Positions 3,201 through 36,015 of a DNA stretch of 36,015 bases are shown here, piece by piece. Position numbers and translations under genes: made by a program. The stretch comes from Chitinophagaceae bacterium. GTDB lineage: Bacteria; Bacteroidota; Bacteroidia; Chitinophagales; Chitinophagaceae. Within the stretch, counting starts at the first letter, position 1. Each line of letters starts with the position of its first letter. Location: assembly GCA_027486835.1 (NCBI GenBank), contig JAIXOJ010000210.1, positions 1-36,015 of the forward strand, written 5' to 3'. The notes below the pieces were generated by a model. It was not told where the DNA came from. It searched no databases and saw only the letters and a list, made by a program, of their open reading frames with translations.

Positions 3201-6200
3201 GCAGTAGGGTTACTGTTGTTTAGGGTGAAATTGTAGTTGGCCGCATTGTGGATACGTCCACTGTTTAAGGTAAGCACGCCTGTTACAGTTGTATTGCCGC
3301 CTAACACTAAGGCATTGACTATTCCTGATTTGGTTACTTGCAAATTGGCAAATGTGGTGGCACCACTAATGGTTTGGGTGGTACTGCCATTGAAATGGAG
3401 GGTAGAGCCATTGGTAACCAATGTACCCGTTGTTACGGTATAATTACCTGCCACTGCTATTACGCCTGTGTCGGATAATACCCGATTACCACCACTGATG
3501 TCTAAGTGCGCATAATTACCCGTCACTACTTTTTGCGAAGCAGTTGCATTGTAGCGCACGGTAACTGTCCAAGTTTTTCCAGCAGTAAGCGGGAAATCTG
3601 TGGTACTCATTACCTGCAATTGACCATTACCATTAATAGTACCCTCAGATTGAATATCGCTGAGTACGGCTAATGTATCTGCAATGGTTATGGTAGCACC
3701 TGCTTTTACGTTGACACGATTAACGGTTTGTTTGATACCGCTTACAGTTGGCATTCTTACGGCACTGCCTGGAATTAATGCCACATCTGTAGCAGTAGGT
3801 ACGCGACTTGGCGACCAGTTACCTGCTAGATCCCAACGGGTGTCGATATTACCAGTCCAAAGAATGGCTGAATCGGTCGTGAAATTAATGGTCGCTGATT
3901 GATAGCTCCAATAAGGGGAGTCAATGATTTTACTACTGAGCGCATGTGCACCTAGCGCAGTACCAGACCAAGTGGCGGTATAAACAACTGTATCATAAGA
4001 CACATTTGTCTTGGTAATGGTAAGCCCAGGGATAGGAGTGCCATTGTCTAAGAATTGCACTGACGAAATACAATTATCAATGTTAGGGTTGGTAACGGTA
4101 AGCGTGAGTATGGTCGTGTCTGGGAAAATGTGGTTGGTTTTGCTGAAAGCCACCAATGTTTGTTTTGGAGCAATACCCGCAACACCTGTAGTACTAATAT
4201 CGGTACGGAAAGAATCCGCAAACAAGCCCAAACGGTTGATATGCCAATTGGTAGCACCCGCAGCGGTGAGCAAACCGGGCTGGCGAAGGCTATCCATGTT
4301 GAATGGCGATATGGGGTTGGTCAATTGGTTCGTGCGTTTGAAATTATCTTCAAACACCGTTCCCCATCTTTTGAATGGATCACTATTGCGGGCATAAGTG
4401 CTATTTGTACTGCCATCAGTATTGAAGAGGCTATTTTCTGTTACATAAGTGAAGGTTTGCCCTTTAAACAATCCATTAAACGTATAAAAAGCATTGTTTT
4501 TAGCGCTGGTCCAGTAACGGGATGTATAGGCAGTATCAGCTTTTGTTCCGCTACAAACATCTTGCAAATCGGGATAAGCATTTCTAAATGCAGCACTACG
4601 ATTATACAGCGCTTTTAAACTATCAAATTTCTTTTTGTAAGAAGCAGTGGTATCCACTTCAATGGTACAAACGTAGGGCCTAGCAGTATTGACAACAACG
4701 TTGTTGGAAAATCTATTAGAAAATCCATCATGGTTGTACATTCCATAACTCACATTAGCGATGATGTTGTTAGAACAGGTATCACCAGAAGTGAAATCAT
4801 CCAAATACAATCCATTGCCTGTGGGCAAATCATGGATGTAGTTGTGGAGAAACTGATTACCCCTGTCTTTCCAAGTACCCGCACCGTAAAAGGCACCCAA
4901 ATCGAAATAGACTTTTACTACATCATACACTTCGTTGTTTTCAAAAACATTGTTGTTGCCACCGCCATATAATATACCAGCATGTGGGCTATCGTGTACC
5001 TTATTGTTGGCCACACGATTACCAACAGTTTTAGAAACATCGATACCTGCATGATAGGTAGGCGCTTGTTGCGCATAACTATACACATGGTTGTTGATAA
5101 TGGTATTGTTCGCAGCGATTTGGCTGGACTGGTTGTTGTTGAAATTGGCATCAGTCAATACAATACCTGCCGAACCAACATCATGAATATCGTTACTAGA
5201 GATGTTGCAATTGGAAGAAGTATTCACCCACAATGCATCCCCATAAGTATTGGTGATTTCCACACCCGCTACGCCTACGTTTTGGCAACTGTTCAACTGA
5301 ACACCATTGCCTGCACCACCCAATATTTTCACATCTTGAAAGCGGGTATAGCTAACCTTAGAAGCTTTAATGGCTGCATCTGTAAGCACATCACTGTATT
5401 GCAAAGTACCCGTATCTGGCACCCACATGTACAGCATTTTGGTGTTGAAATTGATGCTCCACTCCCCTTCAAAGTCAATTTCCTCAAACAGGTTGGAAAC
5501 AAAATAAGGCTCTGCACTATCCCCTACTGGGCGATGGAATTTTTCTCCTATACCTCCAGAAACCCCATTATTATGGGTAGCAATTTTATTAATGGTATCG
5601 AAAGATTTTGTTTTGACGTATTGCAAGACCCAAGGTACACGCCAGTTACCAGCCAACCATACACCCTCGTCATTAAGTGCTTTTACCCAACGGCTAGCTC
5701 TTGCATCAGTGTAACGAAATACACCACCCGTATCAGGACGGTTGTTACCATTTACAATTACCCCATTCATGCGCATGACGGTATCGTTCGGATAGCGAGA
5801 TAATTTTAGAACAGTACCACTGCTATAAAACTGTGGGGTAATGAGATTGTTATCTGCAAATACATTCGCCCATGGAGCTATGCTAGCTGCATTGAAATTA
5901 TAGGTAGTTAAGTTCAATTGCTTCACTTTACCCTTGGCGGTATTGTCCACAATTCGATCCTTGATGCTATCTGGTATGTTTTGGAAATCTGCTTTATTGA
6001 TGGTTTTTAGAGGTTGGAAGATGGCATTGCCTTTGTTGATAGCCTTATAAACCACATTGGTTGTTGCCGTTCTTGTGTCAGAGGAGTCTAAGGTTAATTG
6101 GTTATAAGTACCGTCTTCTAGCAACACGGTGCATGGGTTACTAGGATAAGCTTTTACAATAGCTTTTGCTCTATCCAATGATGCAGGCAACAAGAAACAA

Positions 6201-9200
6201 GTACCTCCACCCGTTGCGCTACCGTTTGGTGCGGCATAGATGGTAACCATTTGACCAGCAGGATAAGATGCCAAAGCAGTGCCCGGGATTGGATTGCCTG
6301 TAACCGTGCCGCTGCCAGTAGTTACCAAAGTACCATTGATGGTAATGCCGCTTAGATTGGCATTGCCTCCTACTGATACATTATACAACACAGTTTGACC
6401 ATTGATAGTGTTAGACGTGCTACCATTTAAGCCCAAAGTACCTATGCCATAAGTAAATGTGCCATTGTTGCTGAACACTGGGGTAGTGCCTGTGAGGGTT
6501 AAATTACCACCTGCGGACATATTGATGGTGCCATTGTTGGTTACCGATGTTGCACTTACGGTATTGGTGTTGCCAAAGGTTAAACTACCTGTACTTAGTA
6601 TAGTGAGCGCACCTACGGTAGCACTATAATTGGTATTGGTAATGGTTACTGCATTAGCAATAAATACGTTCGCATTGGCTGGTGGAACAGCACCACCTAC
6701 CCAAATAGAAGGATTGCTCCATTCCCCTGCACTTGTGGTGATATATCCCAAAGCAGAAAAAGCAGACGAAGCAGTTACAGAGTCTGTAACTACTACATTA
6801 CCTGTTGCAGTAGCTGCGGTTGGTAACACTACTGTTAGTTGCAAAGGCGTTTGGGTAACCACAGTAGCAGTTGCGCCATTCACGGTTACGGTAGTGTTGG
6901 CAGAATAACCAGTACCACTGATGGTAAGGGTTTGTCCATAATAACCTGTGCCGTTTGCTTGACCTGCAATAACAGGATTGCTAGGAACAATGGAAGTAAT
7001 GGCCAATGGCAATGGTGTACCTACTGCCAAAGTTTGACTAGCAACAGAACCTGCCACCGCGGTTACTGTACCTGAAGATGCAAGCCCACCGATACTAGCA
7101 TAGCTGCCCGTGGTTTTTGATGCAACCAAACTTCTTTTGATGGCTGATGCACTGGTCAATGAAAAGCTTGCACTTGTAAGATTGCCTGAACTAGCGAAGT
7201 TCCAATATTCATTGCTTACCCCCGTAAGTGAGGCATCAACGGTTGTGGAATTACCAGAACCAAAAGCCGTTACAGTTGCTGAAACAGTACCAGCACCTGT
7301 TACTGGATTTACCAAGGTAAAAGGCAATAAAGTAGCCGTACCTGAACTAGCACTACCTACAGGATAAGCATAATTGATATTAGCAGTATTGTTTGAAGCC
7401 AACACCCTAGTTAATGCACCATTGATGTAAGCAGAATTGCTTCCTCCACTAATGGCATTGGTAGCCGTGTTGGTAACAGTTAGGCTATTGGTGGATGTAG
7501 TAACTATTCCACTCACTAAAGAAAGTGTTTTGCTTACGTTCAAATTGCCTGCTAAGGAAATGCTATTGGCATTGTTGATGGTTAGGTTGCTAACCGTATT
7601 GCTATTGGTGAATGTATTGGCGGCGATTGATTGCGCAGCAGTACCATTATAAATTACCGTTGCGTTGTTATCATTTGCATCGATGTTGCCAGTAGTGCCA
7701 TTGGTTACTAATGTTCCTTGAAGGGTGAGTGTATTTGCGCCCACTGTAAGTACACCACTATTGGTAAAAGTTAATTGACCGGTAAGGGTAGTTGCACCTT
7801 GAAGTTGTAAGCCTATATTGTTGGCAATGGTAAAGGAAGGATAAGTTCCTGCGGGCAGACTTTGTAGTGCAGTCCCGTTAAAAACAATCGTACCATTCCA
7901 AAGCGAAGGCGAAGGAAGTGGTGTGGATGCAGTACTTGCAGTTCGGATTGTACCTGCATTGGCAAGTGTTCCAACAGAGCTGAATGTATTTGTTCCTAAA
8001 TCAAAAACTGTAGTAGCCGCTACTGTGGTGAGTGTTCCAGATACACTGATATTGCCAAGCGCATTGAGTACTGTTGTTGCACCTGTTGCGCCGAGGTTGA
8101 GCGTGCTGTATAAACCTCCTGCTACATATTGTGTTCCCGTGGTTGCATTGTAACTAACTGTATTTGCCCAACCATTGCTGGTTAATGGAAGCGATGGGTT
8201 GGAAAGGCTTTGGGTTTGTACTTGACCATTTCCAGCATTGCCGATGGTGTTGGATGTATTACCTGCTACTGCAAAACTGGCACAGTTGAGTACATCTGTA
8301 GAATTTGTTACAATTAATGAATCCACACTGATAGCAGAAGCAAGAGTATATGTACCGCCATTGATGGTGAGCGTACCCACTTTTCCGGTTGTTCCTTTTA
8401 CTTCATTGCCTTGGGCGCAGGTGGCTGCTATGGATACATTCACCCTATCGGTAGCTGATGAACCATAAGTAGGTACCGCACCAAGTGTTCCGCCTGTGCG
8501 AATCAAGGTGCTTCCATTTTGCAAAGTCAAAAAGCTGCCGTTATTTAATGTACCTGCTACTAAAGAAAGTGTAGCACCTGATGTAATGGTCATGCTTGCA
8601 CTTAGGGTAACACCGCCTGTGTTGTTAATAACCACAGTTTTGAGTTTACCTGTTGCTGCCGAAGGTATTTCGTTGCCGTTGGAAGTGTAGGCGGTTGATG
8701 TGCCTTTATAACTAAGGTTGATATTGCTTGCCCAATTGCTTGGTGCTGTGGTGAAACTGCCTGCTGCTACGTTGAGGGCTACATCATTGGTGCCGTCTCC
8801 AACAGTAAGGTTGGTACCATTGATGGTTCCACCACCTGTGAAAGTTAATGAACCAGTGAGCGTTGTCCCTGCTCCTACTATGTAAGAAGAAGTATTTGCA
8901 GAAAGGATTTCTATGTTGGCTATTTTAAGCGTACCACCTGTAGTTACCGCGGTTAGTGGAACGTTCGTGCCTGAACGACTGGCCTGTATTTTACCACCAG
9001 ATGATTGATAAACCGTATTGTTTGCTCCTGATGTGTTTGAAACAATAGTTCCACCCGTAATAAAGATGGTATTTCCCCCATCATCAAACGTACCATTGTT
9101 GATGGTGAGTGTTCCTGAAAGCATGGATAATTTATTGGCATTGCAAGTACCAATTTTAATCAGTGCCCCTGCCCTATTGACCATGAAATTATTGATCGAA

Positions 9201-10471
9201 CTTGCATTGGCAGTAGTAGTGTTGAAGTTGACGGTTTGTGTTGCCGTATTTCCTGACCCTAAAAAGCTAACATAGCCACCTGTGGTGGTGGAACTTGGAC
9301 CATTGCCCGCTGAAAGGGTTCCACCTCCGTTGGAAATAGAACCTGTGGTACCAGATGTAGTTCCAGAAGCATTGAACTGAACCGTTTTCCCATTGAGTGC
9401 AAGATTTCCTGAAGTATTTAGATTGAGCAATCCATTTATTTGCAAAACCCCTCCGCCAGATATAAGAATATTTTTCCCATTGGCTATTTCTACATTGGCT
9501 ATTTGCGAAACTCCAGAAGCATTCAAACTGATTGCATTGGCAAGTGTTGCGCCTGTAACGCTAATGGTTTGCCCAGCACCTGTTAGGTTGAGCGTAATTG
9601 CGGGCGTGGAAGTATATCCACAACCTCCTGATGTAATTGCAATACCCGTAATTGGAAAAGGACTCGTGGTACTAACCGTTACGCCAATAGTTGCGGCAAT
9701 ACCAGCAAAGCGATAGGTTATGTTTCCAATTGTTTGGCTACCTCCCACAAAATTGGGGGCAGTTGTTCCAGAATTGCCTGACTGAGCAGTAACTGTATAA
9801 AGGTATCCTCCATTTGCTACTTGTTGACCAACTGCATAGGTTGCATTAGAAGTCCAAACAGTACCCACAGTAATGGTAGAACCAGTGTAAGCAGTAGTAG
9901 CTGTACCAGTGATGGAACTAGTGAAAAAGCCCAAAGAAGATGCTGTAGAGGAACCAGCTAATCTGATATTTCCTGAACCACTATGGCAAGTGGCAGAGGA
10001 ACTATTATTTGCAATGAAAGAACCACCCACCACAAACGTATTACCTCCATCGGCGATGGTGCATCCTGCGGTGAGGACCAGATCGTTCGCTATGTTCAAT
10101 GTTGCCGAAGCAGCACCAAATGTTGCTGCGAAGGAGGAGGTTCTAGTAATAATGAGACTCGCAATGGTTTCGTTATTGGTGAGATTGTTAATGGTAACAG
10201 CAGCACTTGAAGTAGCACTTCCTAAGTTAGTACCATCAATAATCAATACATCGGCAGCATTCGGCGTTGTTCTGTTCCCCGAATTGGTGGTTGCGCCCTT
10301 GGTAGTACTCCAACTAGTTGAAGCGTTATAATTACCACTAGTGCCTCCTACCCACCAATAGGTGCTTTGGCCGTGGGCAGCAGTAATAAAACACAATAGA
10401 ACCAATCCAAAAAGCAATTTTTTTACCATCCAATTACTGGCATCATTTAGCTTCAGTGCATTCCAATTCAT
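221..10471 (-). CDS. Giant secreted repeat protein with an embedded GH141-like parallel beta-helix domain
   Basis: This is a 3416-residue protein with a signal peptide (hydrophobic LLFGLVLLCFITAAHG, cleavage near residue 35). An internal ATG at 10429 would give a more ordinary leader. Residues about 36-1100 are Thr/Asn/Gly-rich beta-strand repeats of the type found in large Bacteroidota adhesins. An IPT/TIG-like domain lies at about 1160-1250, followed by a W-x(5)-W-x-G-x(2)-P module. Residues about 1400-2000 form a right-handed beta-helix with landmarks recalled from GH141 and related proteins: EGEWSINFNTKMLYMW, HAGILYGGGNNNVFENNE, FDLGAFY (D1857) and GLYLDD (D1891/D1892). A bacterial Ig-like domain (about 2100-2200), two more W modules (about 2200 and 2660), a second IPT-like segment and more repeats follow. 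A YI-x-G...R...Y-x-FPVG module recurs at about 1015, 2430 and 3245. The C-terminus shows no recognisable T9SS sorting domain. A role in glycan binding or cleavage at the cell surface is inferred. Confidence 0.9.
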   Translation of the reverse strand: MNWNALKLNDASNWMVKKLLFGLVLLCFITAAHGQSTYWWVGGTSGNYNASTSWSTTKGATTNSGNRTTPNAADVLIIDGTNLGSATSSAAVTINNLTNNETIASLIITRTSSFAATFGAASATLNIANDLVLTAGCTIADGGNTFVVGGSFIANNSSSATCHSGSGNIRLAGSSTASSLGFFTSSITGTATTAYTGSTITVGTVWTSNATYAVGQQVANGGYLYTVTAQSGNSGTTAPNFVGGSQTIGNITYRFAGIAATIGVTVSTTSPFPITGIAITSGGCGYTSTPAITLNLTGAGQTISVTGATLANAISLNASGVSQIANVEIANGKNILISGGGVLQINGLLNLNTSGNLALNGKTVQFNASGTTSGTTGSISNGGGTLSAGNGPSSTTTGGYVSFLGSGNTATQTVNFNTTTANASSINNFMVNRAGALIKIGTCNANKLSMLSGTLTINNGTFDDGGNTIFITGGTIVSNTSGANNTVYQSSGGKIQASRSGTNVPLTAVTTGGTLKIANIEILSANTSSYIVGAGTTLTGSLTFTGGGTINGTNLTVGDGTNDVALNVAAGSFTTAPSNWASNINLSYKGTSTAYTSNGNEIPSAATGKLKTVVINNTGGVTLSASMTITSGATLSLVAGTLNNGSFLTLQNGSTLIRTGGTLGAVPTYGSSATDRVNVSIAATCAQGNEVKGTTGKVGTLTINGGTYTLASAISVDSLIVTNSTDVLNCASFAVAGNTSNTIGNAGNGQVQTQSLSNPSLPLTSNGWANTVSYNATTGTQYVAGGLYSTLNLGATGATTVLNALGNISVSGTLTTVAATTVFDLGTNTFSSVGTLANAGTIRTASTASTPLPSPSLWNGTIVFNGTALQSLPAGTYPSFTIANNIGLQLQGATTLTGQLTFTNSGVLTVGANTLTLQGTLVTNGTTGNIDANDNNATVIYNGTAAQSIAANTFTNSNTVSNLTINNANSISLAGNLNVSKTLSLVSGIVTTSTNSLTVTNTATNAISGGSNSAYINGALTRVLASNNTANINYAYPVGSASSGTATLLPFTLVNPVTGAGTVSATVTAFGSGNSTTVDASLTGVSNEYWNFASSGNLTSASFSLTSASAIKRSLVASKTTGSYASIGGLASSGTVTAVAGSVASQTLAVGTPLPLAITSIVPSNPVIAGQANGTGYYGQTLTISGTGYSANTTVTVNGATATVVTQTPLQLTVVLPTAATATGNVVVTDSVTASSAFSALGYITTSAGEWSNPSIWVGGAVPPANANVFIANAVTITNTNYSATVGALTILSTGSLTFGNTNTVSATSVTNNGTINMSAGGNLTLTGTTPVFSNNGTFTYGIGTLGLNGSTSNTINGQTVLYNVSVGGNANLSGITINGTLVTTGSGTVTGNPIPGTALASYPAGQMVTIYAAPNGSATGGGTCFLLPASLDRAKAIVKAYPSNPCTVLLEDGTYNQLTLDSSDTRTATTNVVYKAINKGNAIFQPLKTINKADFQNIPDSIKDRIVDNTAKGKVKQLNLTTYNFNAASIAPWANVFADNNLITPQFYSSGTVLKLSRYPNDTVMRMNGVIVNGNNRPDTGGVFRYTDARASRWVKALNDEGVWLAGNWRVPWVLQYVKTKSFDTINKIATHNNGVSGGIGEKFHRPVGDSAEPYFVSNLFEEIDFEGEWSINFNTKMLYMWVPDTGTLQYSDVLTDAAIKASKVSYTRFQDVKILGGAGNGVQLNSCQNVGVAGVEITNTYGDALWVNTSSNCNISSNDIHDVGSAGIVLTDANFNNNQSSQIAANNTIINNHVYSYAQQAPTYHAGIDVSKTVGNRVANNKVHDSPHAGILYGGGNNNVFENNEVYDVVKVYFDLGAFYGAGTWKDRGNQFLHNYIHDLPTGNGLYLDDFTSGDTCSNNIIANVSYGMYNHDGFSNRFSNNVVVNTARPYVCTIEVDTTASYKKKFDSLKALYNRSAAFRNAYPDLQDVCSGTKADTAYTSRYWTSAKNNAFYTFNGLFKGQTFTYVTENSLFNTDGSTNSTYARNSDPFKRWGTVFEDNFKRTNQLTNPISPFNMDSLRQPGLLTAAGATNWHINRLGLFADSFRTDISTTGVAGIAPKQTLVAFSKTNHIFPDTTILTLTVTNPNIDNCISSVQFLDNGTPIPGLTITKTNVSYDTVVYTATWSGTALGAHALSSKIIDSPYWSYQSATINFTTDSAILWTGNIDTRWDLAGNWSPSRVPTATDVALIPGSAVRMPTVSGIKQTVNRVNVKAGATITIADTLAVLSDIQSEGTINGNGQLQVMSTTDFPLTAGKTWTVTVRYNATASQKVVTGNYAHLDISGGNRVLSDTGVIAVAGNYTVTTGTLVTNGSTLHFNGSTTQTISGATTFANLQVTKSGIVNALVLGGNTTVTGVLTLNSGRIHNAANYNFTLNNSNPTALIGGSATAFIDGPFSRNTTVGNTYSFPVGDYTSSAFYLPDTLTGLTANGVITITAVKANANGSFNASLFSISNAEYWMVQSSVANTLALAIAPSSLGTNNMVGQSATANGVYNSIGGILSSTSITASNISVAANQPTYLLAAYYPDPTISNVVSCIPGITANSFYAMDTLTINGTYIKGNYPITVGGKPVTIIDSSNLPNQIKVLVNATPLNGTVQINNTVFAANYLPGYVTRYNGSWNTAATWLGAATPTGSSITATINNVVTMTSSINGIQNLTINAGASYTTSNVGTTYNSGATLINNGTYSTANSNTYTNLTFVNNGRATLGGQTYTNVNLTNNAGDSIIISSSSVTMSGTITNNGYFKHTSTAMYVNGSLTLNGSKMDTINSLTLNAGTSGTITFTTAPYLSGNFAFNAPYTVTGNNPVYASTGNVYYNTGATQPIGAEWKPNVTSGAGVPATVLIGNGNAGSSISLMAGNTYKCNASLTVSNGCTLAVPSTVTLQSTGLKVVGTLNIANGGLVQSASTATINSTGVVNVGSSVLGSVATTSNGGLLITSGACNDTGTVNNYGYIRMSASNFSLFSTGTLGMNSNAVLELANNSPAVPSATWNANANLYLTGLTNGTPTNIAQSFGHVLWNCTSQTGTPNIVGFNNLAGTFTILNTGTGIVRLNNTSNTFGGLQVGGSATVNGATVNTTAASLNLAYTTASTTQVNGNITLGTAGTLAASMANTNLGLTGNWSNAGTFTTTNTTVIFNGSAAQTISRTGGETFLNLTMNGAGGATLNNPATITGALTLTNGKLSLGSNNLTLNSGITVTGASANSYIATTGTGKLIRKAVATTATLFPIGTSTSYTPLTISNNAASDMTVGVSPTVSITAFDTSRLVKLQWSVLSSITTTSTSIQYQFNSSNGASNFSPANAMENAWNSSTTNVFTPLSAAGTAPVFTLTKSGLALVGNTTYNSALGNLNTFQSGFSRISNANPDVYYTMAYHPRFK

Positions 10472-26601: not shown

Positions 26602-29600
26602 ATGACTCCCCCACCCTTGCCATTTAATGATTCCGAAAGGCTAAAAGCGTTAGGAAAGTATAATTTATTAGATACCTTACCAGAAGAAGACTTTGACAAC
26701 ATTACTTATCTAGCTTCTGTAATATGCCAAACCCCTATTAGTTTAATATCGTTGATAGATAAAGACAGGCAGTTTTTTAAATCGCATTTAGGCATAAATA
26801 TCAATCAAACACACAAAGACCTTTCTTTTTGTGCTCACGCTATCAACCAATCCCAAACCATATTTGAAATAGAAGATGCCCGTTTAGATGATCGATTTCA
26901 CGATAATGATTTTGTAATAGGCGAGCCAAATATTGCATTCTATGCAGGCATCCCACTAGTAGATGCTGATGGATTTGCATTGGGAACGCTTTGTGTGATA
27001 GACCAAAAGCCTCGCAAGCTGACTGTAGAACAAAAGGAAGCGTTGACTAAGCTTTCTAAGCAGGTAATGTTTATAATAGAAGCTAGGCAAAAGAAAATAA
27101 TAGAAGAAGAATTGAAATTGGTAGATTTTACATTCAACAATTCTACCTTGCCTATACTCCTAATAAAAGAAGATTCGAGTATCTATAATTTAAACCATGC
27201 AGCAGCTAAATATTTTGGTTACACCCAAGAGGAATTAAAGGGTAAAAAGATAATCGACATAGATGATAACTATGATACAGCTAAATGGGCATTACATTGG
27301 TTAGAAATTAAATCCAAAGGGAGTATAACCATTGAAGCCACACCTACGAAAAAGGATGGAACCATTACAAATCTAGTTATCCATATAAGTTATTTAAAGC
27401 ATGGCGATTTAGAATTAATTTGTTCTTACACAACAGACATCACCGAAAAGAAAAAGCAGGAAGCGCAAATGATGTTGGTGGATTTTGCATTTAGAAACTC
27501 TACCACGCCTATAAACATAATATCCAAGGATGCTTCAGTATTCGATTTTAATGAAGCTGCCAATAAATTATTAGGATATACCAAAGAAGAATACGCCTCA
27601 ATTTCTATTCCCGATATTGACCCCGACTACCAATATGACATTTGGCCGATTCATTGGGAAGAACTAAAGAAAGCAAAATCATTAAGTTTTGAATCTAATC
27701 TGATTAAGAAAAACGGTGAAATTATACATGTTAACATAGAGGCCAACTTCATCCAATATGGCAATAAAGAGCTTAACTGCGTATTCTTTACTGATATTTC
27801 CGAAAAGAAGAAAATTGAAGAAAACTTAAAACTTTATGCATTTACAATAGAAAATGCTGCCTGGGGTTTAGTTTATTTTAGGGCAGATGGTTCTATTTAT
27901 AATTGCAACCTAACTTTTGCAAAAATGTTTGGGTATGCCAGTTTAGAAGAAGTGAAAACCAAAACAGTATTTGAATTAGGCAATGCATACACAACTGATT
28001 CCTGGAAAGAATATTGGGATGATTTGAGGGAAAAGAAGCGAATGCAGTACTATGGTAAAAGAAAGAAAAAAGATGGAACCATAATAGACGTAGAAATTAT
28101 TTCCAACATAATTAAATATGGCGATTTAGAACTTAATTGTGGCTATGCATATGATGTAACAGAAAAGTTAGCACTAGAAAAAAAATTAAAAATCATAGAT
28201 TTCTCTTTTAGAAACGCAACTATAGCCATGCACTATTGGAGGAAAGATGGGTCTAGTTTTGACTTTAATGATGCTGCATGTAAACTACTTGGCTATACGC
28301 CAGATGAATACAAAAACCTGAATATAATTAAGGTTTCAAATAGGCATACTATGGAAACTTGGACAAAAAGGTTTGAGGAACTGAAAAATGGCCCCAACAA
28401 ACCATACATAACCGCACTCGTTAAAAAGGATCAATCGTGGGTTTATGTAGAAATTAGGTCGGAGATAATAGTATATGAAGATATTGAACTATGCTTTAGT
28501 TCCATTATTGATGTAACAGAGCAATTGAAGGCAGAAGAGAAATTAAAACGCAGCAATCAGCGTTATGAATATGCCACATTAGCCACATCAGATGTAATTT
28601 GGGAAGCAGATCTTGCAAAAAAGGAAATATTTATCAGTAAAAATTTCACCACGTTCTTTCATCACGAAGTTGCAGATGGATGGATGCCAATTGAAAATAA
28701 TATTTGGAGACAAAATATCCACCGAGATGATATGGATTTTATCATGGAGAATCAATATACCTTACTCGCTTCAGATACCAGTAATAATAAGTGGGAAGGA
28801 GAGTACAGATTGAGAAAGGCCGATGGAAGCTTTGCTTTTGTAAGAGATAAAACCTTTGCCATTAAAGATGAAAATGGAAAAATAGTAAGAATGATTGGGG
28901 CTATGCAAGATATCACCAAACAAAAAGAAGCCGCAGAAGAGAAAGAAACGCTATTGAAAGAATTGGTGGAAAACAACCTTGAGTTGAAGCAGTTTAGCTA
29001 TATAACCTCTCATAACTTGAGGGCACCATTAACCAATCTTGTTTCTATTTGTAATATGATTAAACCAGCAAAAGGTACAGATGCACTTACCCTTAAGCTA
29101 ATAGACGGTTTTAAAACTTCTACCTATCGTTTAAATGAAACCTTGAATGATTTAATTGAAGTGATGATTATAAAAGAGAATAGAAATATTAGGAGGGATC
29201 AACTAACATTTGAAGAGATATATAAAAAAACAAAAGAATCACTTTCAATATCATTAATAGAGAATGAAGCAATTATAAACGCAGACTTCTCCGAAGCGCC
29301 CGCCGTAATTTTTGCCAATGAATATTTAGAAAGTATATTCTTAAACCTATTTACCAATTCTGTAAAATATCGTCATCCAAATAGAGCCCCCATCATTACC
29401 ATAAAAACAAGCAAAGAACCCAATGGCGATACAAAGCTTACCTTTTCTGATAATGGAATTGGTATAAATATGGAGTTCGCAAAAGACAAAATATTTGGCT
29501 TGTACAAAAGGTTTCACAACAATGCCAATAGTAAAGGAATTGGATTATACCTTATACATTCTCAAATAACTACACTTGGCGGTACTATAGCGGTAGAAAG

Positions 29601-29643
29601 CGAGGTAAACATTGGAACAACTTTTACAATTACGTTTAAATAA
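26602..29643 (+). CDS. GAF-PAS5 sensor histidine kinase
   Basis: This 1013-residue sensor kinase has no signal peptide or membrane helix, so it is probably cytoplasmic. Order of domains: GAF (about 10-165, with LLDTLPEEDFDNI and FYAGIPLVDADGFALGTLCV), four similar PAS domains (about 172-283, 290-404, 410-523 and 530-640), a fifth more divergent PAS with a PAC tail (about 653-776), then a dimerisation domain with phospho-accepting His804 in SHNLRAP. The ATPase domain has an N box (NLFTNSVKYR, about 915), DNGIGI (about 951) and KGIGLYL (about 978). The four PAS units share phrases such as F-x-N-(S/A)-T and N-x-A-A-x-(K/Y)-x-(F/L)-GYT, so they arose by tandem duplication. No receiver domain is fused. 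The gene stands alone; its response regulator is not adjacent, though one is encoded at 34969-35601. The input signal is unknown. Confidence 0.95.
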   Translation: MTPPPLPFNDSERLKALGKYNLLDTLPEEDFDNITYLASVICQTPISLISLIDKDRQFFKSHLGININQTHKDLSFCAHAINQSQTIFEIEDARLDDRFHDNDFVIGEPNIAFYAGIPLVDADGFALGTLCVIDQKPRKLTVEQKEALTKLSKQVMFIIEARQKKIIEEELKLVDFTFNNSTLPILLIKEDSSIYNLNHAAAKYFGYTQEELKGKKIIDIDDNYDTAKWALHWLEIKSKGSITIEATPTKKDGTITNLVIHISYLKHGDLELICSYTTDITEKKKQEAQMMLVDFAFRNSTTPINIISKDASVFDFNEAANKLLGYTKEEYASISIPDIDPDYQYDIWPIHWEELKKAKSLSFESNLIKKNGEIIHVNIEANFIQYGNKELNCVFFTDISEKKKIEENLKLYAFTIENAAWGLVYFRADGSIYNCNLTFAKMFGYASLEEVKTKTVFELGNAYTTDSWKEYWDDLREKKRMQYYGKRKKKDGTIIDVEIISNIIKYGDLELNCGYAYDVTEKLALEKKLKIIDFSFRNATIAMHYWRKDGSSFDFNDAACKLLGYTPDEYKNLNIIKVSNRHTMETWTKRFEELKNGPNKPYITALVKKDQSWVYVEIRSEIIVYEDIELCFSSIIDVTEQLKAEEKLKRSNQRYEYATLATSDVIWEADLAKKEIFISKNFTTFFHHEVADGWMPIENNIWRQNIHRDDMDFIMENQYTLLASDTSNNKWEGEYRLRKADGSFAFVRDKTFAIKDENGKIVRMIGAMQDITKQKEAAEEKETLLKELVENNLELKQFSYITSHNLRAPLTNLVSICNMIKPAKGTDALTLKLIDGFKTSTYRLNETLNDLIEVMIIKENRNIRRDQLTFEEIYKKTKESLSISLIENEAIINADFSEAPAVIFANEYLESIFLNLFTNSVKYRHPNRAPIITIKTSKEPNGDTKLTFSDNGIGINMEFAKDKIFGLYKRFHNNANSKGIGLYLIHSQITTLGGTIAVESEVNIGTTFTITFK

Positions 29644-29677
29644 ACAACAATGGTTGATGCCGTTTTATCTGTTGACC

Positions 29678-29915
29678 CTGCTAGCGCAAGCTTGTAGCGC
29701 ATGCTATTCACTAAGGTTTGCCAACGCACGTGAAAGCTTACAATTTTCAAACCAGAACTATTGCTACCCTATTTACCAACCAAATAATCCCCGGGATCAC
29801 AATATTACCAATAGTAAGAAGTTTATTCAATTCGCTTTAGGTCTTTTATTGACCAATCCTCACAACCTTGCGAAGAACTAATCGAATAGTACGAGCTACA
29901 AGCAAGTGCTAGCTG
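29678..29915. repeat. Inverted-arm element, copy 1
   Basis: The left arm GCTAGCGCAAGCTTGTAGC...CTATTC matches the reverse complement of the right arm, which reads GCTAGCACTTGCTTGTAGC...CTATTC. The interior shares CCAGAACTATTGCT, CAAATAATC, TTATTCAATTCGC and CACAACCTTGCGAAGAACT with copies 2 and 3. This copy is about 238 bp, the shortest, with deletions in the middle. It begins 35 bp after the kinase stop and ends 49 bp before the four-helix membrane protein gene. It contains no convincing ORF. Confidence 0.85.
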
Positions 29916-29963
29916 AGCTAGTGAGCGCCGACCAGTGAATTTAATTGAATGGATGTTTCCCTC

Positions 29964-30371
29964 TTACCCATTGGATTTTAATCTGTATAAAGCATGTCCT
30001 AATAATGTGGAGGGAATAAAAATGAGCAGTCCAACAATAATAAACCAAGTAGGGTGTGGTAACGATAAGAAATTAGCTACAGCAGACAGTGTCAAAATAC
30101 CTCCAGCAATTATCGGCGATCTCTTGTTCGCGTTTTTACTAATTAACTTTATCAAAAACCCACATAAGCCTGAACCTATTATCCAACCTACCAAAACGAG
30201 TACCCAAAGTGTTATTGGTTGGTGTTCATAAAATGCTTTAACTGCTTCATGGTCTTTATAGTCCAAAGTTTGGGGTGCTTCGTGTAAGGAACTATTAATT
30301 GATTCAGCGATTAAAAAAACGATAACTGCTGACATTAAACCAACAACCACAGAAATAATGTTTCGTTTCAT
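29964..30371 (-). CDS. Small four-helix membrane protein, unknown function
   Basis: This 135-residue protein has four likely membrane helices at about 5-25, 54-75, 86-104 and 108-128 (for example ISVVVGLMSAVIVFLIAE and TWFIIVGLLIFIPSTLLG). A soluble loop between helices 1 and 2 (about 28-52) carries HEAPQTLDYKDHEAVKAFYEHQP. The start ATG 30371 is preceded by AT-rich sequence without a Shine-Dalgarno motif. I do not recognise a family with confidence; small proteins of this kind occur in many Bacteroidota. It lies alone between element copies 1 and 2. A link to the operon at 30902-33606 is not shown. Confidence 0.75.
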   Translation of the reverse strand: MKRNIISVVVGLMSAVIVFLIAESINSSLHEAPQTLDYKDHEAVKAFYEHQPITLWVLVLVGWIIGSGLCGFLIKLISKNANKRSPIIAGGILTLSAVANFLSLPHPTWFIIVGLLIFIPSTLLGHALYRLKSNG

Positions 30372-30498
30372 ATTTAAATATCATTTGAGGACAAAAATAT
30401 TTAAATGAAGCTTGCCAAAATTCTACAGAGCTAAAAAATATAGCACTACTCAAATGTTTTCAAATAAGGCTAATGAAGATTGTTTGAATAACCCAAAC

Positions 30499-30765
30499 CC
30501 CAGCTAGAGCAAGCTTGTAGCACTTGCAATTCATTAAGCTCATCTAACGCAGGTGTGAGTTTACAATTAGTTACAAAACGATTCAACCCAGAACTATTGC
30601 TGCCCCCAGTACCAATCGAATAATCCACTGCACCACTAAATAAGGTTGTTGCAAAAAATCAGCTTCAACAGGATTATTCAATTTGCCTCAGGTCGTTTAC
30701 TTACCAAACACACAACCTTGCGAAGAACTTAGTGAGTATCACGAGCAACAAGCTAGTGCTAGCTG
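30499..30765. repeat. Inverted-arm element, copy 2
   Basis: The left arm CAGCTAGAGCAAGCTTGT (30501-30518) faces a right arm whose reverse complement is CAGCTAGCACTAGCTTGT (30765-30748). The match continues inwards for about 50 bases with roughly 70 percent identity by eye. The interior shares TTTACAATTAG, CAGAACTATTGCT, GCACCACTA, AATCAGCTTCAACAGGATT and ACAACCTTGCGAAGAACT with copy 3. It lies about 140 bp past the stop of the nuclease gene, in the same orientation as copies 1 and 3. The rest of 30372-30901 holds nothing else recognisable. Confidence 0.88.
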
Positions 30766-30901
30766 AGCGGCTTGTTAACACCTTCTATAATGCGTGTACT
30801 GAAGACCAACTTGATTATTTATACAATTCCGAAACAACCGCTTTCGCTATTGTTTCTAGTGACACACACAAGCACGCACGAGTTGAATTAAGTTGGGTAA
30901 T

Positions 30902-31630
30902 TTATTCTCTCAGACTTATTACTCTTATGAATTGACCCAGCTCAATTTTTTGCTTATTCTTTGTGTAATTTCCACTTATACTGTATAAAATTTGTGTACC
31001 GGTAAACTTAAAAAACTTGCCACTTTGTTTAAATAAGTCACCATTTAATGTCTCATATTCGAATACAATATCTGCATAGCCATATTCTACTGATAACTGT
31101 TTGAAAGCATCTAAACTACCCAATTGTGACAGTTTAAATATGGCATAATTATCCGCATATGATACTTTTTCTAGCTCATTAAGAATAATTTCCTTAAACT
31201 CTTCTAAATTCCGAAGCCATCTATCTTGCGTACCATTAAAAAATAACAAACTGTTTCCATCAAACAAAAAACCCACTGAACACCTAAATTCTTGCAAATA
31301 ACCGATAAGTTGTTTCTTATCTGAATTAACATTTGTGTGTGTTTTTGTTTCAACTATTAACAACGGGATATAAGGTTTAAAATCTATTGGTAGAACTGGA
31401 AAAATGACAATATCAGCATTATTAAATTCCACTTTAATATCTATCAAGTTTGGGTAAATTTTTGATAAATACACTAAGTAATATAACATGCATTGCCTAA
31501 TAAACTCTTCTGGTTCACTGTTCAATAATATTTTATTCTCCCTAATTATACAATAAAGAAATTTTGAGTAGTTTTTATCTTCCAAAATTTCAATATTATT
31601 TTGAAATTCTTGACAAAACGATAGATCCAT
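30902..31630 (-). CDS. HsdR-N-like PD-(D/E)xK nuclease, partner of the upstream GTPase
   Basis: This 242-residue protein resembles the N-terminal nuclease domain of type I restriction HsdR subunits and stand-alone relatives. The expected layout is present: Glu42 in PEEFIRQCMLYYLV, Asp73 in NNADIVIFP, Glu94-x-Lys96 in LLIVETKTH, then Gln107 and Tyr111 in KQLIGYLQEF, and GFLFDGNSLLFF, which matches the usual 'NG' strand. About 95 further beta-rich residues form a C-terminal extension that I do not recognise. There is no helicase domain and no methylase or specificity gene nearby, so it is not a normal type I system. A GTG at 31636 overlaps the GTPase stop (GTGA); ATG 31630 lies 3 bases after that stop. 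Either start implies translational coupling. Cleavage of DNA is inferred from the motif set. Confidence 0.88.
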   Translation of the reverse strand: MDLSFCQEFQNNIEILEDKNYSKFLYCIIRENKILLNSEPEEFIRQCMLYYLVYLSKIYPNLIDIKVEFNNADIVIFPVLPIDFKPYIPLLIVETKTHTNVNSDKKQLIGYLQEFRCSVGFLFDGNSLLFFNGTQDRWLRNLEEFKEIILNELEKVSYADNYAIFKLSQLGSLDAFKQLSVEYGYADIVFEYETLNGDLFKQSGKFFKFTGTQILYSISGNYTKNKQKIELGQFIRVISLRE

Positions 31631-31632
31631 AA

Positions 31633-33606
31633 TCACTGTCCAAAGAATTCCAATGTTTTACCAATAACTATAGATTTCCAAAATTCTTCTGTTTTGTTTT
31701 TTAAAATTAAATTTATATCATCAAGTTGATTGGAAAAAATAGTACAAATGTCATCGGTATATCCACTGCCTTTACCACGGCGATTAATTACATGATACCA
31801 AAAATTTGAGGTTAAATCTTGTGGATGAAATTTTTTATTAAAAATTTCATCATAAACCAACTGTCCAATTTGTTTCAAAAAAATGTCATAAAAAATTTCA
31901 AGTTGATTTAATATTTCCTTAATAAAACTCTCTAACTCGTGATGTTGTATTTCTATAGCTGACTTTTGAATGACTTCGGTTATTTTGCTCTTAAAATCTT
32001 CAGTATTCTTACGAACTAAATCTATTGCAAGGTGAAAAGAATCATTATAAATATCATAATCCTTTTCATCATAAATTCCAAACCTTCTGTTAATTGCGTG
32101 TTTGGTAAAATGATGATATTGATTTCTATAATAATAAACAAATTTATCTACAAACTCTTCAGAATTAACAAAATTTAAATTAACAAACCCTTTTATGTCA
32201 CTATGAATCTTCTTTAATAATTCTTCCTCGTCGGCTGTTATCTGTTGAGAACCGCCTTCAATAGAAAAAAAATCATTTTTTATTTGTTCGATTTCTGCTT
32301 TTGTTTGCTCAACTCGATTTTTTATGACGACATTTATTAGATTAATAACTTCATTTCTATCATTTTCTACATCTTCTAACTCATAGCCTTCATTTAAGTT
32401 TAGCTTTCCATTATAATAAAATCTCAAAGCGTCATAAAATACAATATTTTCAGTAGAAAATTCAAGGCTTTGCTGTATAAATGTGTCAAGAATAGTATTT
32501 CTACGTAATTTAATACCTTCTTCCCAATCCCCTATTGCCGTTCCGTCGCTAGATATTGTACTCTCTGGTTCTTGTCCTCTTGGCATAACAAATGTCACAA
32601 AACGTTGGTGAAACCTTTTGGATTTAAAAGACAAATGCCTTTGCATTTGCTCTAAAATATCACTATCTGGGGCATTAGGAAACTTTGTAGTATAAAGACA
32701 AATGGTATCTTCCTGATTTACATATTTATCTAAATCTTTCCTGAATTTATTAGCATCAATCCCTTTTGTATCAATTATTTCGCTAAAACTATTGAAATAA
32801 GAATGATTTAGAATTCTGTCACTAACATATAAATATATTCTTTTAGGGATTGATAAAGTTTCAATTTTTGCTACATTCAAATCTTCAAAAGTCTTTTTAA
32901 TCCATTCCGTTTCATCACCAATTTCAAAATTAATATTTGTTTCAGTTCGGTTATTAAAATTGGCTCGTTTGAGCAATTCTTCTTTAAAATTTTCAAGGCT
33001 TGAAAACTGTTTGGCAAGTTCTTCTGCTTCATCAATTGTTATATTCTTTTTCTTATTATCAATTATTTCTTCTCTATCTTTCTTTTTTAAATTTATTATG
33101 TTTCTTAATGCACGGTCTATCTCAGGAGAAATAATATTCACACCCTTTGCGGTTGTGGTTTCCGCATATTTTATAGGATTTACTTTCATTTCGATAAAGT
33201 CAGCAAAAGAACTAATTAAATCTTTTAACTCAGCTTCTGTGTATGCCTCAATACTAAAATATGTATTTTCGGAAGGTTTAATAATAACTTCACATATAGT
33301 TGTGTAGCCTGAACCAGTTGCAAGTAATTCTTGAAATTTCTTTACTTTTTTACCTCTCTCACTGACCTCAAACTCACCAATTATATTAAACAAATGACAA
33401 ATAGCCGTAGTTTTTCCTGCACCTACTTGTCCAATAAATACAAGTTTGTATTTATCTATACTCAACACTTTTTCAAGATATTCAAGTCTTTCAAGTTTAC
33501 CCTCCAATGTCTTTTTACATAAAAAGTCATAAAGGGATTTGGGTTTACTAAGCTTTAAAATTGCTTCCTGTAACCTACCTTTTAGTTCATCAATGATTAT
33601 ATCCAT
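31633..33606 (-). CDS. Large dynamin-like P-loop GTPase/NTPase, candidate defence protein
   Basis: This 657-residue protein is soluble, with no signal peptide or membrane segment. After a helical N-terminus, GQVGAGKT (59-66) is a clear P-loop preceded by a hydrophobic strand. ATGSGYTTICEV (96-107) sits where switch I would carry its Thr, and IIDTKG (D279-G282) fits the DxxG switch II motif. FVTFVMPRGQEPE follows at a position expected for the base-recognition strand, but a standard NKxD is not visible. Nucleotide preference is therefore uncertain. The C-terminal half is long, helical and charged, as in dynamin-like stalks, and ends with a short conserved-looking RRGKGSGYTDDI. It is the first gene of a two-gene operon with the nuclease. 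The AT-rich operon is bracketed by element copies 2 and 3, which suggests transfer. A defence role is inference from architecture and context. Confidence 0.87.
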   Translation of the reverse strand: MDIIIDELKGRLQEAILKLSKPKSLYDFLCKKTLEGKLERLEYLEKVLSIDKYKLVFIGQVGAGKTTAICHLFNIIGEFEVSERGKKVKKFQELLATGSGYTTICEVIIKPSENTYFSIEAYTEAELKDLISSFADFIEMKVNPIKYAETTTAKGVNIISPEIDRALRNIINLKKKDREEIIDNKKKNITIDEAEELAKQFSSLENFKEELLKRANFNNRTETNINFEIGDETEWIKKTFEDLNVAKIETLSIPKRIYLYVSDRILNHSYFNSFSEIIDTKGIDANKFRKDLDKYVNQEDTICLYTTKFPNAPDSDILEQMQRHLSFKSKRFHQRFVTFVMPRGQEPESTISSDGTAIGDWEEGIKLRRNTILDTFIQQSLEFSTENIVFYDALRFYYNGKLNLNEGYELEDVENDRNEVINLINVVIKNRVEQTKAEIEQIKNDFFSIEGGSQQITADEEELLKKIHSDIKGFVNLNFVNSEEFVDKFVYYYRNQYHHFTKHAINRRFGIYDEKDYDIYNDSFHLAIDLVRKNTEDFKSKITEVIQKSAIEIQHHELESFIKEILNQLEIFYDIFLKQIGQLVYDEIFNKKFHPQDLTSNFWYHVINRRGKGSGYTDDICTIFSNQLDDINLILKNKTEEFWKSIVIGKTLEFFGQ

Positions 33607-33706
33607 TTTAGTTCAATTTTTTTATTAATTTTAATTCATATTTTGTTAGAGAAAAAAGTTTTTACTTTTAGCTCAAAACAAGCTTCTTAATTAGACTTAT
33701 TTAGTT
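33607..33706 (-). promoter_or_regulatory. Likely promoter region of the GTPase-nuclease operon
   Basis: These 100 very AT-rich bases lie between the operon start and element copy 3 and must hold the operon promoter unless it lies within the element. I find no exact TAnnTTTG box and no Shine-Dalgarno sequence before ATG 33606, so this assignment rests on position alone. Confidence 0.3.
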
Positions 33707-33987
33707 CCCAGTTAGAGCGAGATTGTAACTCGGTGCTACTCGCTAAGTTCAACCAATGTAGGAGTAAATTTACAATTAGCTACAAAACCATTCAAACCAG
33801 AACTATTGCTCCCCCCTTTACCAACCAAATAATCTACGGCACCACTATATATCTAGTGATTAGGTTCTTGAATAAAAATCAGCTTCAACAGGATTATTCA
33901 ATTCGCCTTGGGTCGTTTACCCTCCGACCAAACAACCTTACGAACAACTAAGCGAGTAGCACAAGCCACAATCTCAACATAGCTGGG
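33707..33987. repeat. Inverted-arm element, copy 3
   Basis: The ends are CCCAG...CTGGG. The left arm contains GAGATTGTAACTCGGTGCTACTCGC, given here as GAGATTGT then GTGCTACTCGC; the right arm's reverse complement contains the same two words, GAGATTGT and GTGCTACTCGC. These words differ from copy 2 (AGCTTGT in both arms), so the arms have changed together. Interior blocks match copy 2 closely. The copy ends 26 bp before the FN3-like gene stop at 34013. The small open frame at 33733-33951 crosses it and is probably not a gene. Confidence 0.9.
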
Positions 33988-34012
33988 AATAAACGATTGC
34001 TTTAAGCTTTAC

Positions 34013-34684
34013 CTACGCACAAATAATACTTACCTCGTTGCTTAACACACTCACCCCTACGGTATTAATGATATAGAAATACACATAATAAGTGGTTTTG
34101 GGGATAAGCCCTTCGAAGTGTTTTTTTCTCCTCCTGTTTAAGTCAACCCATACATTACAAGAAAAGGAGTCTTTAGGTATTGATAACTGACCAAGGGAAT
34201 TAATTACTACTCCTTTAGACAAAGGAGCATCGGTTAATATACAGCCATAAATGGCCTTGTCCACAGCCGCACATTCGGCTTTTATAACACCCTCAGTACC
34301 TCTTGTAACCACTACGTCAGATGGCTGACTGGGCTTATTGGTTGGTTTACTTTTTTTATTGTCGGTAGGTATGAAACCCGATGATATAACAATGTTTTCA
34401 TCGCCATTTGCAATATTATCCACAAAATCGGCTAAACCGTTTAACATTTTAACGGCTGACTCTAGCGTGTTCTGGTAGGCGGGTTTCTGGGCAATTCCTC
34501 CACGCCTGTATGCAACTGTGTTTGTTAATAAATCTGCTTCCATTTTAGCTACCGTAGCATCATCGGAGGGTGGTTTGGGAAAGGTTGTGGGATTGCCAAT
34601 TATTCCTTTTCTCACAGCCTCTAAGCGGGTAGATATTTTTTCCCCAATATCTTTTCTATAACTTCTGCTGCATCGTACTATCAT
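34013..34684 (-). CDS. FN3-like domain protein of a Bacteroidota family
   Basis: This 223-residue protein lacks a signal peptide or membrane helix. Residues 1-105 form a helical domain with the pattern I recall from a Bacteroidota family: an early GNPTTFPKPPSDDATVAKME, a middle ALNT-like helix pair, and ADFVDNIANGDENIVISSGF before the linker. A Pro/Ser/Lys-rich linker (about 108-122) leads to a beta-sandwich of fibronectin type III character (about 123-223), ending in GLIPKTTYYVYFYIINTVGVSVLSNEV, the typical last strands. No catalytic motif is visible. Related proteins are often annotated as FN3-containing and of unknown role. Two near-identical palindromes lie upstream and may control it. 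The domain call is moderate; the function is unknown. Confidence 0.85.
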   Translation of the reverse strand: MIVRCSRSYRKDIGEKISTRLEAVRKGIIGNPTTFPKPPSDDATVAKMEADLLTNTVAYRRGGIAQKPAYQNTLESAVKMLNGLADFVDNIANGDENIVISSGFIPTDNKKSKPTNKPSQPSDVVVTRGTEGVIKAECAAVDKAIYGCILTDAPLSKGVVINSLGQLSIPKDSFSCNVWVDLNRRRKKHFEGLIPKTTYYVYFYIINTVGVSVLSNEVSIICA

Positions 34685-34743
34685 AATTTTATTTTTAAGC
34701 GTTATGTGGCAGCAACTCTAGCCATTTTTTTCAACATAAAGCT

Positions 34744-34759
34744 ATAGCCAATTGGCTAT
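34744..34759. promoter_or_regulatory. 16-bp palindrome, candidate operator (site 1)
   Basis: ATAGCCAATTGGCTAT is a perfect palindrome 60 bp upstream of the FN3-like gene start. The half site TAGCCA is also present at 34717 (CTAGCCATTTT). Together with the second palindrome it suggests a dimeric regulator site. The protein that would bind it is unknown. Confidence 0.45.
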
Positions 34760-34832
34760 TTCTTTTTTGAGAAAAAGGTTGTAGTTAAATGCTTACTCAT
34801 CAACAAAAAAGCAAGTAATATTTAATACTAAA

Positions 34833-35601: not shown

Positions 35602-35848
35602 TGTTTAGAATTTTATGTTTTTTACAAAATGAAAAGTGTTGGTATAGGCTAAATGTTAAAGTAATTCGTGGAAATAAACACTAGATTCTTTTGATTTGGA
35701 AAATGTTGCCAAATGTTCGAAAAATAATGCACACATATTTAAAATGACTGCGAAGAAACTTAAAAACCAAAGAATCTTTATTCATTTACTTCCTTTTTTT
35801 CATTACAGACTTATGGCTTTTTCTCTGTTTAACCTAGCTTGGCTAGGT
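35602..35848. other. Intergenic region before the terminal tandem repeat
   Basis: I see no gene or strong signal except that the frame of the following repeat is open from ATG 35813 (MAFSLFNLAWLG). Confidence 0.4.
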
Positions 35849-36015
35849 GCAAACTTTGCAGGTGAAGGCGCAAACCTTGCAGGTGGAGGCGTAAACCTTG
35901 CAGGTGGAGGCACAAACCTTGCAAGTGGAGGCGCAAACCTTGCAGGTGGAGGCGCAAACCTTGCAGGTGGAGGCGCAAACCTTGCAGGTGGAGGCGCAAA
36001 CCTTGCAGGTGGAGG
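35849..36015. repeat. 21-bp tandem repeat, 8 units, continuing past the window
   Basis: Units of GCAAACCTTGCAGGTGGAGG plus C repeat without spacers; the first four differ at one or two bases, and the later ones are identical up to the edge. On the plus strand the frame from ATG 35813 reads through every unit as ANLAGGG heptads with no stop, and the minus strand is also open. This could be the start of a repeat-coding gene or a minisatellite. The expansion of identical units at the far end points to recent growth. Confidence 0.95.

Follow-up and report, generated by a model that had tools for sequence, protein, structure and literature searches.

We analysed a 36,015-nucleotide stretch of DNA from a Chitinophagaceae bacterium (contig JAIXOJ010000210.1 of assembly GCA_027486835.1), hereafter the window, in which two adjoining minus-strand genes had been proposed in an earlier note as an undescribed defence system. 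The window is one whole contig of a 6.4 Mb genome assembled in 219 contigs, and each gene is matched once in that genome. Both open reading frames (ORFs) are present between positions 30902 and 33606, as had been described. The first gene of the pair (31633–33606) encodes a 657-residue, dynamin-like P-loop nucleoside triphosphatase (NTPase), identified from its ORF, an AlphaFold model and Foldseek; the second (30902–31636) encodes a putative PD-(D/E)xK-type nuclease of 244 residues when read from a GTG codon, identified from its ORF, a model and a sub-threshold Pfam match to HSDR_N_2. The GTG start lies on the stop codon of the NTPase gene in a four-base overlap (GTGA, 31633–31636), which likely couples translation of the two genes, to judge from the sequence. 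An alternative ATG start at 31630 yields the 242 residues previously given for the nuclease and lies 2 bases past the NTPase stop, not 3 as had been stated; the overlap that had been seen is real, and the residues numbered E94 and K96 from the ATG become E96 and K98 from the GTG.

All of the motifs described for the NTPase (GQVGAGKT, TT and IIDTKG) are found on the minus strand: the P-loop (G1; G59–T67, GQVGAGKTT with K65 in it, 33406–33432), which reads GxxGxGK(S/T) in 25/25 sequences compared; T102-T103 at the switch I position (33298–33303), with T103 invariant across 11 alignment rows; and the G3 motif D279-T-K-G282 (32761–32772), which is DT(K/R/Q)G in 25/25. The canonical, guanine-specifying G4 motif (N/TKxD) is missing at its expected place, where P342-R-G-Q-E346 stands instead (32569–32583), and none of the 25 family members compared has it there; a TKED far downstream in L080 is the only N/TKxD between G3 and residue 430 in these sequences. 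Because G4 is absent from its expected place in every member compared, 'GTPase', the term of the earlier note, is an inferred label: its P-loop and fold are borne out, its guanine specificity is not. The sequence does not show nucleotide specificity, and we use the term NTPase throughout.

An AlphaFold model built from 11 sequences (mean predicted local distance difference test score (pLDDT) 80.1, predicted template modelling score 0.73) produced 30 Foldseek matches at E ≤ 0.001, led by SynDLP (8.2e-8), the paired bacterial dynamin 5oxf, BDLP and IniA and followed by mitofusins, Fzo1 and dynamins. The matches listed are bacterial and eukaryotic dynamins, with LeoA at E 0.034. Template modelling (TM) scores on the query are low (0.18–0.40) and root mean square deviations high (11–52), as would be expected if the arms were posed differently. 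Because of these values we propose from the model a dynamin-like fold and no subfamily, and because the G4 test failed we do not assign the protein full membership of the dynamin superfamily, whose core feature, a P-loop NTPase with DxxG and a long helical bundle, is present by model, Foldseek and motifs. Searching solved structures with the NTPase profile returned P-loops of signal recognition particle receptors (E 2e-4 and up) and one PD-(D/E)XK-like chain (E 0.23). Pfam places AAA_22 on the protein at E=2.4e-4, below the Pfam cut-off, and annotation as an AAA_22 ATPase was rejected because the model matches dynamins.

The closest Foldseek folds belong to membrane dynamins, and DynA of Bacillus subtilis is reported to confer phage resistance (PMC8844932); the NTPase could thus act on membranes as DynA or LeoABC do, with the nuclease acting separately. 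We regard this as very improbable. The highest hydropathy over 19 residues (Kyte–Doolittle scale) ranges from 0.91 to 1.42 across 25 NTPases, with no 19-residue stretch above 1.42; these values speak against a strongly hydrophobic or transmembrane segment, an amphipathic paddle being outside their reach. A hydrophobic membrane-binding paddle or transmembrane segment is not found in every dynamin. Residues 496–522, which lie between the trunk helices and are taken as a putative tip, are polar and conserved, with T/S501, A504 and G510 kept in 25/25 within a poorly modelled stretch. Separate action of the nuclease is further opposed by its position behind the NTPase gene in all cyanobacterial cases (8/8, see below).

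The second protein carries E43-E44 (31505–31510), D75 (31412–31414), E96-T-K98 (ExK, 31343–31351) and Q109-xxx-Y113 (QxxxY, 31298–31312), all on the minus strand and each conserved in 16/16 nucleases. In its AlphaFold model (mean pLDDT 86.5), the helices (H) and strands (E) follow the order H42–57, E65–69, E76–80, E93–97, H103–116, comparable to an alpha-beta-beta-beta-alpha core, with weak fold matches to DUF820 nucleases, TT1808 and Cas4. Pfam gives HSDR_N_2 at E=6.3e-4 and 20.2 bits, below the cut-off of 25, and a search of solved structures with the nuclease profile reached E values of 0.06–0.9 only. The PD-(D/E)xK assignment made earlier is therefore retained as a probable one, based on the conserved motif and the model. 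With the N-terminal nuclease domain of HsdR, the protein shares the E-D-ExK-QxxxY pattern and sub-threshold matches to HSDR_N_2 and HSDR_N; it differs in standing alone at about 240 residues and in its C-terminal all-beta part (residues 189–243, 30908–31072, minus strand; DSSP of the AlphaFold model). This part is perhaps an SH3/Sm/WYL-like barrel, with weak Foldseek matches of the model to Hfq, Tudor, chromo-barrel and WYL proteins (E about 0.06–0.4). Relatives of the nuclease core (L070, L071–L078) comprise seven cyanobacterial proteins of 1084–1220 residues, as frame lengths, and two short ones of 205 and 254 residues.

We identified 14 intact pairs (the window, L003, L005, L014–L021, L079, L080 and L081), which span the phylum of the window, Cyanobacteriota and Pseudomonadota (Contendobacter, L019); one of them, the L005 copy, is on a plasmid. 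Identity to the homologous pairs in other genomes is 38–44% for the NTPase and 27–32% for the nuclease. Because such homologous pairs occur elsewhere, the pairing in the window is not due to chance, and close pairing of the two genes, on which the earlier proposal depended, is seen across phyla. Their spacing is close: the genes overlap in the window, have zero distance in L003, L005, L018 and L021, and are ~100 bases apart in L019 and in the Nostoc/Calothrix-type copies. In 11 Nostoc/Calothrix-type sequences (L014–L017, L020, L022, L024, L079–L082), the gap keeps a hairpin of 8–9 predicted pairs, of which 2/9 are changed on both sides; it is perhaps an attenuator that sets nuclease dose. In L019 (7805–11908), the NTPase frame lies within an open 1367-codon ORF that starts far upstream, either a fusion or a frame open by chance.

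The presence of the pair is sporadic. Within the phylum of the window, the NTPase was found in 2/394 other genomes (395 with the source genome itself) and the nuclease in one of these two: in G013 an NTPase of 39% identity is directly followed by the nuclease, and in G112 an NTPase of 32% identity has no nuclease. Within its class, 0/364 other genomes contain the NTPase at E ≤ 1e-10. NTPase relatives occur in 20 plasmid records, the best being pPg_01 of Pseudanabaena galeata, where the pair is present and its two genes are labelled 'hypothetical' and 'type I restriction enzyme HsdR N-terminal domain-containing'. A search of 72,556 plasmid records with the window nuclease gave a single match, likewise behind an NTPase gene. 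Genome contigs gave no relative when searched with the single window protein, and an alignment-based scan of them gave 13 loci: (i) L014–L021 with an unbroken NTPase frame and the nuclease, (ii) L022 and L024 with a broken NTPase and an intact nuclease, (iii) L025 and L026 with NTPase remnants and no nuclease, and (iv) a solo NTPase in Shewanella (L023). When these 13 genomes were searched in full for the nuclease, 10 had strong matches (E<1e-80), every one of them at the pair; those of L023, L025 and L026 had weak matches or none.

Linkage was determined in 388 genomes of the cyanobacterial class of G433 (Nostoc), the top 3 candidates of each genome being scored for the NTPase and the top 7 for the nuclease. 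The NTPase profile matched 12 genomes: seven with full-length proteins (E<1e-290), one with a remnant (G816), two with proteins that have an XRE-like N-terminal part (G701 and G619, by eye) and two with fragments (G653 and G720). The nuclease profile matched 17, eight with full-length proteins (E<1e-90) and, clearly separated from them in score, nine with matches of the N-terminal domain at E>1e-17. All seven full-length close NTPases are accompanied by the nuclease, and all eight full-length nucleases share the strand of an NTPase gene and lie directly 3' of it; in G816 this gene is the remnant. Neither protein was matched in 50,697 phage records, and a phage origin of the pair is unsupported; a single scan of viral contigs gave one distant XRE-fused relative. 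A tree of 13 of the 14 intact paired NTPases (L021, near-identical to L018, was left out, as were the broken ones), 10 XRE-fused and 2 solo NTPases splits each group off by a branch, with support values of 100/100, 99/97 and 100/99. Long branches meet in this tree, as the tool warned, which leaves its finer order uncertain, also for the window protein.

The decayed loci bear on how the two proteins may depend on each other. In L022, L082 and L024, one of which belongs to the eight cyanobacterial cases above, the NTPase is broken and the nuclease retains all motif residues: in L014 numbering, L022 has an internal deletion of ~residues 178–472, L082 has lost most of the N-terminal part and keeps only about 516–671, and L024 has a frameshift near residue 97. 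In L026 (Nostoc favosum) 68 NTPase codons are left, in surroundings that resemble those of L016 and L024 in gene order and length. The reverse, a broken nuclease beside an intact close-family NTPase, was seen in 0/14 loci. In a toxin–antitoxin-like arrangement, the nuclease would be toxic to the host and restrained by the NTPase, and loss or inhibition of the NTPase upon infection or plasmid loss would free it. The operon structure in the window, L003 and L005, where the two genes overlap or adjoin, is compatible with such an arrangement, as is the annotated PemK/MazF gene near the plasmid copy in L005. We nevertheless consider it unlikely, since it is opposed both by the 0/14 count and by the motif-complete nuclease ORFs that L022, L024 and L082 keep beside broken NTPases, where the nuclease may be unexpressed. 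Intact nuclease ORFs at such loci imply that cells tolerate the nuclease by itself, provided that it is expressed there; this favours a model in which the NTPase activates its partner over one in which it restrains a toxin.

Neighbouring genes were tallied with PADLOC and Pfam for 74 neighbours at 10 loci (9 intact pairs and L022; L021, L024 and L079–L082 were left out), with 25 of 215 PADLOC and 25 of 122 Pfam families among the matches listed and 19 neighbours scanned singly against Pfam. Clear defence neighbours occur near 4/10 loci, a raw count without a background rate. In L028, which is L003 with wider surroundings, an MvaI/BcnI endonuclease and an N6/N4 methylase adjoin the nuclease and share its strand; a HindVP endonuclease and an m5C (5-methylcytosine) methylase lie upstream in L020; L005 has a DEAD/UvrD-type helicase with DpdF/PsyrT- and GajB-like parts by PADLOC, and Rpn and PemK/MazF by annotation; and L018 has a SoFic-type Fic neighbour. 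The WYL and AAA neighbours of L019 are equivocal, and at the remaining five loci, as in the window, the genes are housekeeping ones or unassigned. The link to defence islands that had been suggested is thus seen at these four loci, but the window and the Nostoc loci lie among housekeeping genes. Near the window pair, Pfam matches Por_Secre_tail.

Sister NTPases provide independent support for a defence link through the restriction genes beside them. In Shewanella (L023, 9869–20723), the solo NTPase heads a type I restriction locus on one strand, in the order NTPase, HsdR, an unassigned gene, a 1.5 kb gap, HsdM and HsdS. In L006 and L013, an XRE-fused NTPase is followed by the gene of a GmrSD_N (DUF262) protein. 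The branch with an N-terminal XRE-type helix-turn-helix consists of L006–L010, L012, L013, L027, L061 and L062, where the XRE head was called by Pfam, NCBIfam or record annotation and, for L061 and L062, by eye. Its members are found on alphaproteobacterial plasmids, a Citrobacter IncU plasmid, one viral contig and in two cyanobacterial genomes.

PD-(D/E)xK nucleases also serve in repair and in mobile elements, and of the 20 plasmid records in which the NTPase has a relative, 9 are predicted to be conjugative. Both observations would suit a factor for plasmid or host maintenance, DNA repair or recombination, its dynamin-like machine handling DNA ends for processing by the nuclease. Such a factor would not be expected to show the scattered distribution of the pair and its decay in 4/13 loci, and restriction genes recur as neighbours; we judge this explanation improbable.

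Comparison with described systems separates the pair from each of its nearest counterparts. With McrBC it shares the two-gene logic of an NTPase and a nuclease, as the earlier note had pointed out. Since the NTPase model is dynamin-like and not an AAA+ protein of the McrB type, the analogy is functional only and does not extend to structure; McrB is described as a GTP-specific AAA+ protein (PMC7680126). No McrB or McrC family is among the Pfam matches of the pair at E ≤ 1, and membership in McrBC was rejected. The NTPase shares its dynamin-like fold, by Foldseek, with SynDLP, BDLP, IniA and LeoABC/Eleos. The window pair differs from these bacterial dynamins in having no hydrophobic segment, no canonical G4 and no second dynamin gene, and in having a nuclease partner. 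LeoA is described as having LeoB and LeoC as partners and a hydrophobic paddle that is putative (PMC4159319). Membership in LeoABC/Eleos was rejected, as the window encodes one dynamin-like protein and a nuclease instead of tandem dynamins and gives no PADLOC match. We identified no HsdR motor, HsdM or HsdS beside the window pair and rejected a standard type I system; the previous statement that the locus is neither standard type I nor type IV is upheld. No DUF262 protein occurs at the window pair. NCBIfam has nothing near cut-off for the two proteins. We found no description of the pair in the literature searched, a scope that leaves out supplements, subscription journals and DefenseFinder models, and the terms GTPase, HsdR and dynamin are absent from the main text of PMC10853773, PMC12839542 and PMC13092281.

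Three copies of a 240–270 base repeat, for which no strand is assigned, flank the genes of this locus: one at 29676–29918, a middle copy at 30499–30768, 3' of the nuclease gene, and a third at 33707–33974, 5' of the NTPase gene. The outer copies share 71 and 78% identity with the middle copy. In the genome the repeat is confined to this locus, except for a single 35-base match, and it was found in 0/38 relatives searched. Its ends are inverted repeats, though imperfect, and both of the copies that were folded do so better than shuffled sequences (z −2.8 and −4.6). Read along the minus strand, one copy follows each of three units, namely a gene of 223 residues, the NTPase–nuclease pair and a weakly DUF4064-like gene, an arrangement that may resemble a cassette array. 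An integron reading gained no support: no match in the genome exceeds the cut-off of TIGR02249, whose below-cut-off matches also occur in 14/14 control genomes, and there is no Phage_int_M. Rfam gave 0 matches on 29400–34800. Elsewhere in the window, a 3416-residue ORF (221–10471, minus strand) has no Pfam match at 1e-5, and 21-base tandem units (AACCTTGCAGGTGGAGGCGCA and variants) occupy 35810–35998 near the contig end.

We propose that the pair is an undescribed two-gene defence module in which an NTPase gates a nuclease, a reading to which we assign a probability of about 0.58. Upon meeting a sign of invasion, the soluble dynamin-like NTPase would assemble or change shape with its nucleotide cycle; this change would switch on the partner PD-(D/E)xK-type nuclease with its C-terminal beta-barrel, probably within a two-protein complex; and the activated nuclease would cut invading DNA or, as in abortive infection, cellular DNA. 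Several results weigh against this proposal. No model of PADLOC 2023 matches the window NTPase or nuclease, a result that agrees with the claim of an undescribed system, and the relatives L003, L005 and L006 match Leo models only faintly (E 7e-4 to 0.07). The nuclease has a best Foldseek E of 0.033 (a DUF820 nuclease) with unrelated proteins interleaved among its weak matches, and Pfam finds Dynamin_N on the NTPase at E 0.65 only. The neighbours of the window pair are housekeeping or unassigned genes, 6 of the 10 loci scanned have no clear defence neighbour, including Nostoc sites with transporter genes, and L008, L010 and L012 have no annotated restriction gene directly beside the NTPase. Finally, an error in assembly might account for the frameshift of L024, and the loci with broken NTPases may not express their nuclease.

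A more specific version of the defence module, which we put forward tentatively and regard as possible though less likely than not, holds that the dynamin-like NTPase is soluble, has an altered nucleotide pocket, works off the membrane, assembles on invader DNA or on a product of infection and activates the nuclease. The pair would then belong to a wider defence family as one of its branches, each joining this NTPase to another partner: a stand-alone HsdR_N-like nuclease, a complete type I system, DUF262/GmrSD or an XRE DNA-reading head.

Known defences that join an NTPase to a nuclease use AAA+, ABC/OLD or helicase motors, and the dynamin fold is known in immunity from Mx proteins and guanylate-binding proteins (GBPs). 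If the proposal is correct, a dynamin-like switch acting on a DNA nuclease would connect this fold with the cutting of nucleic acids in bacteria, in a two-gene system small enough to be tested easily.

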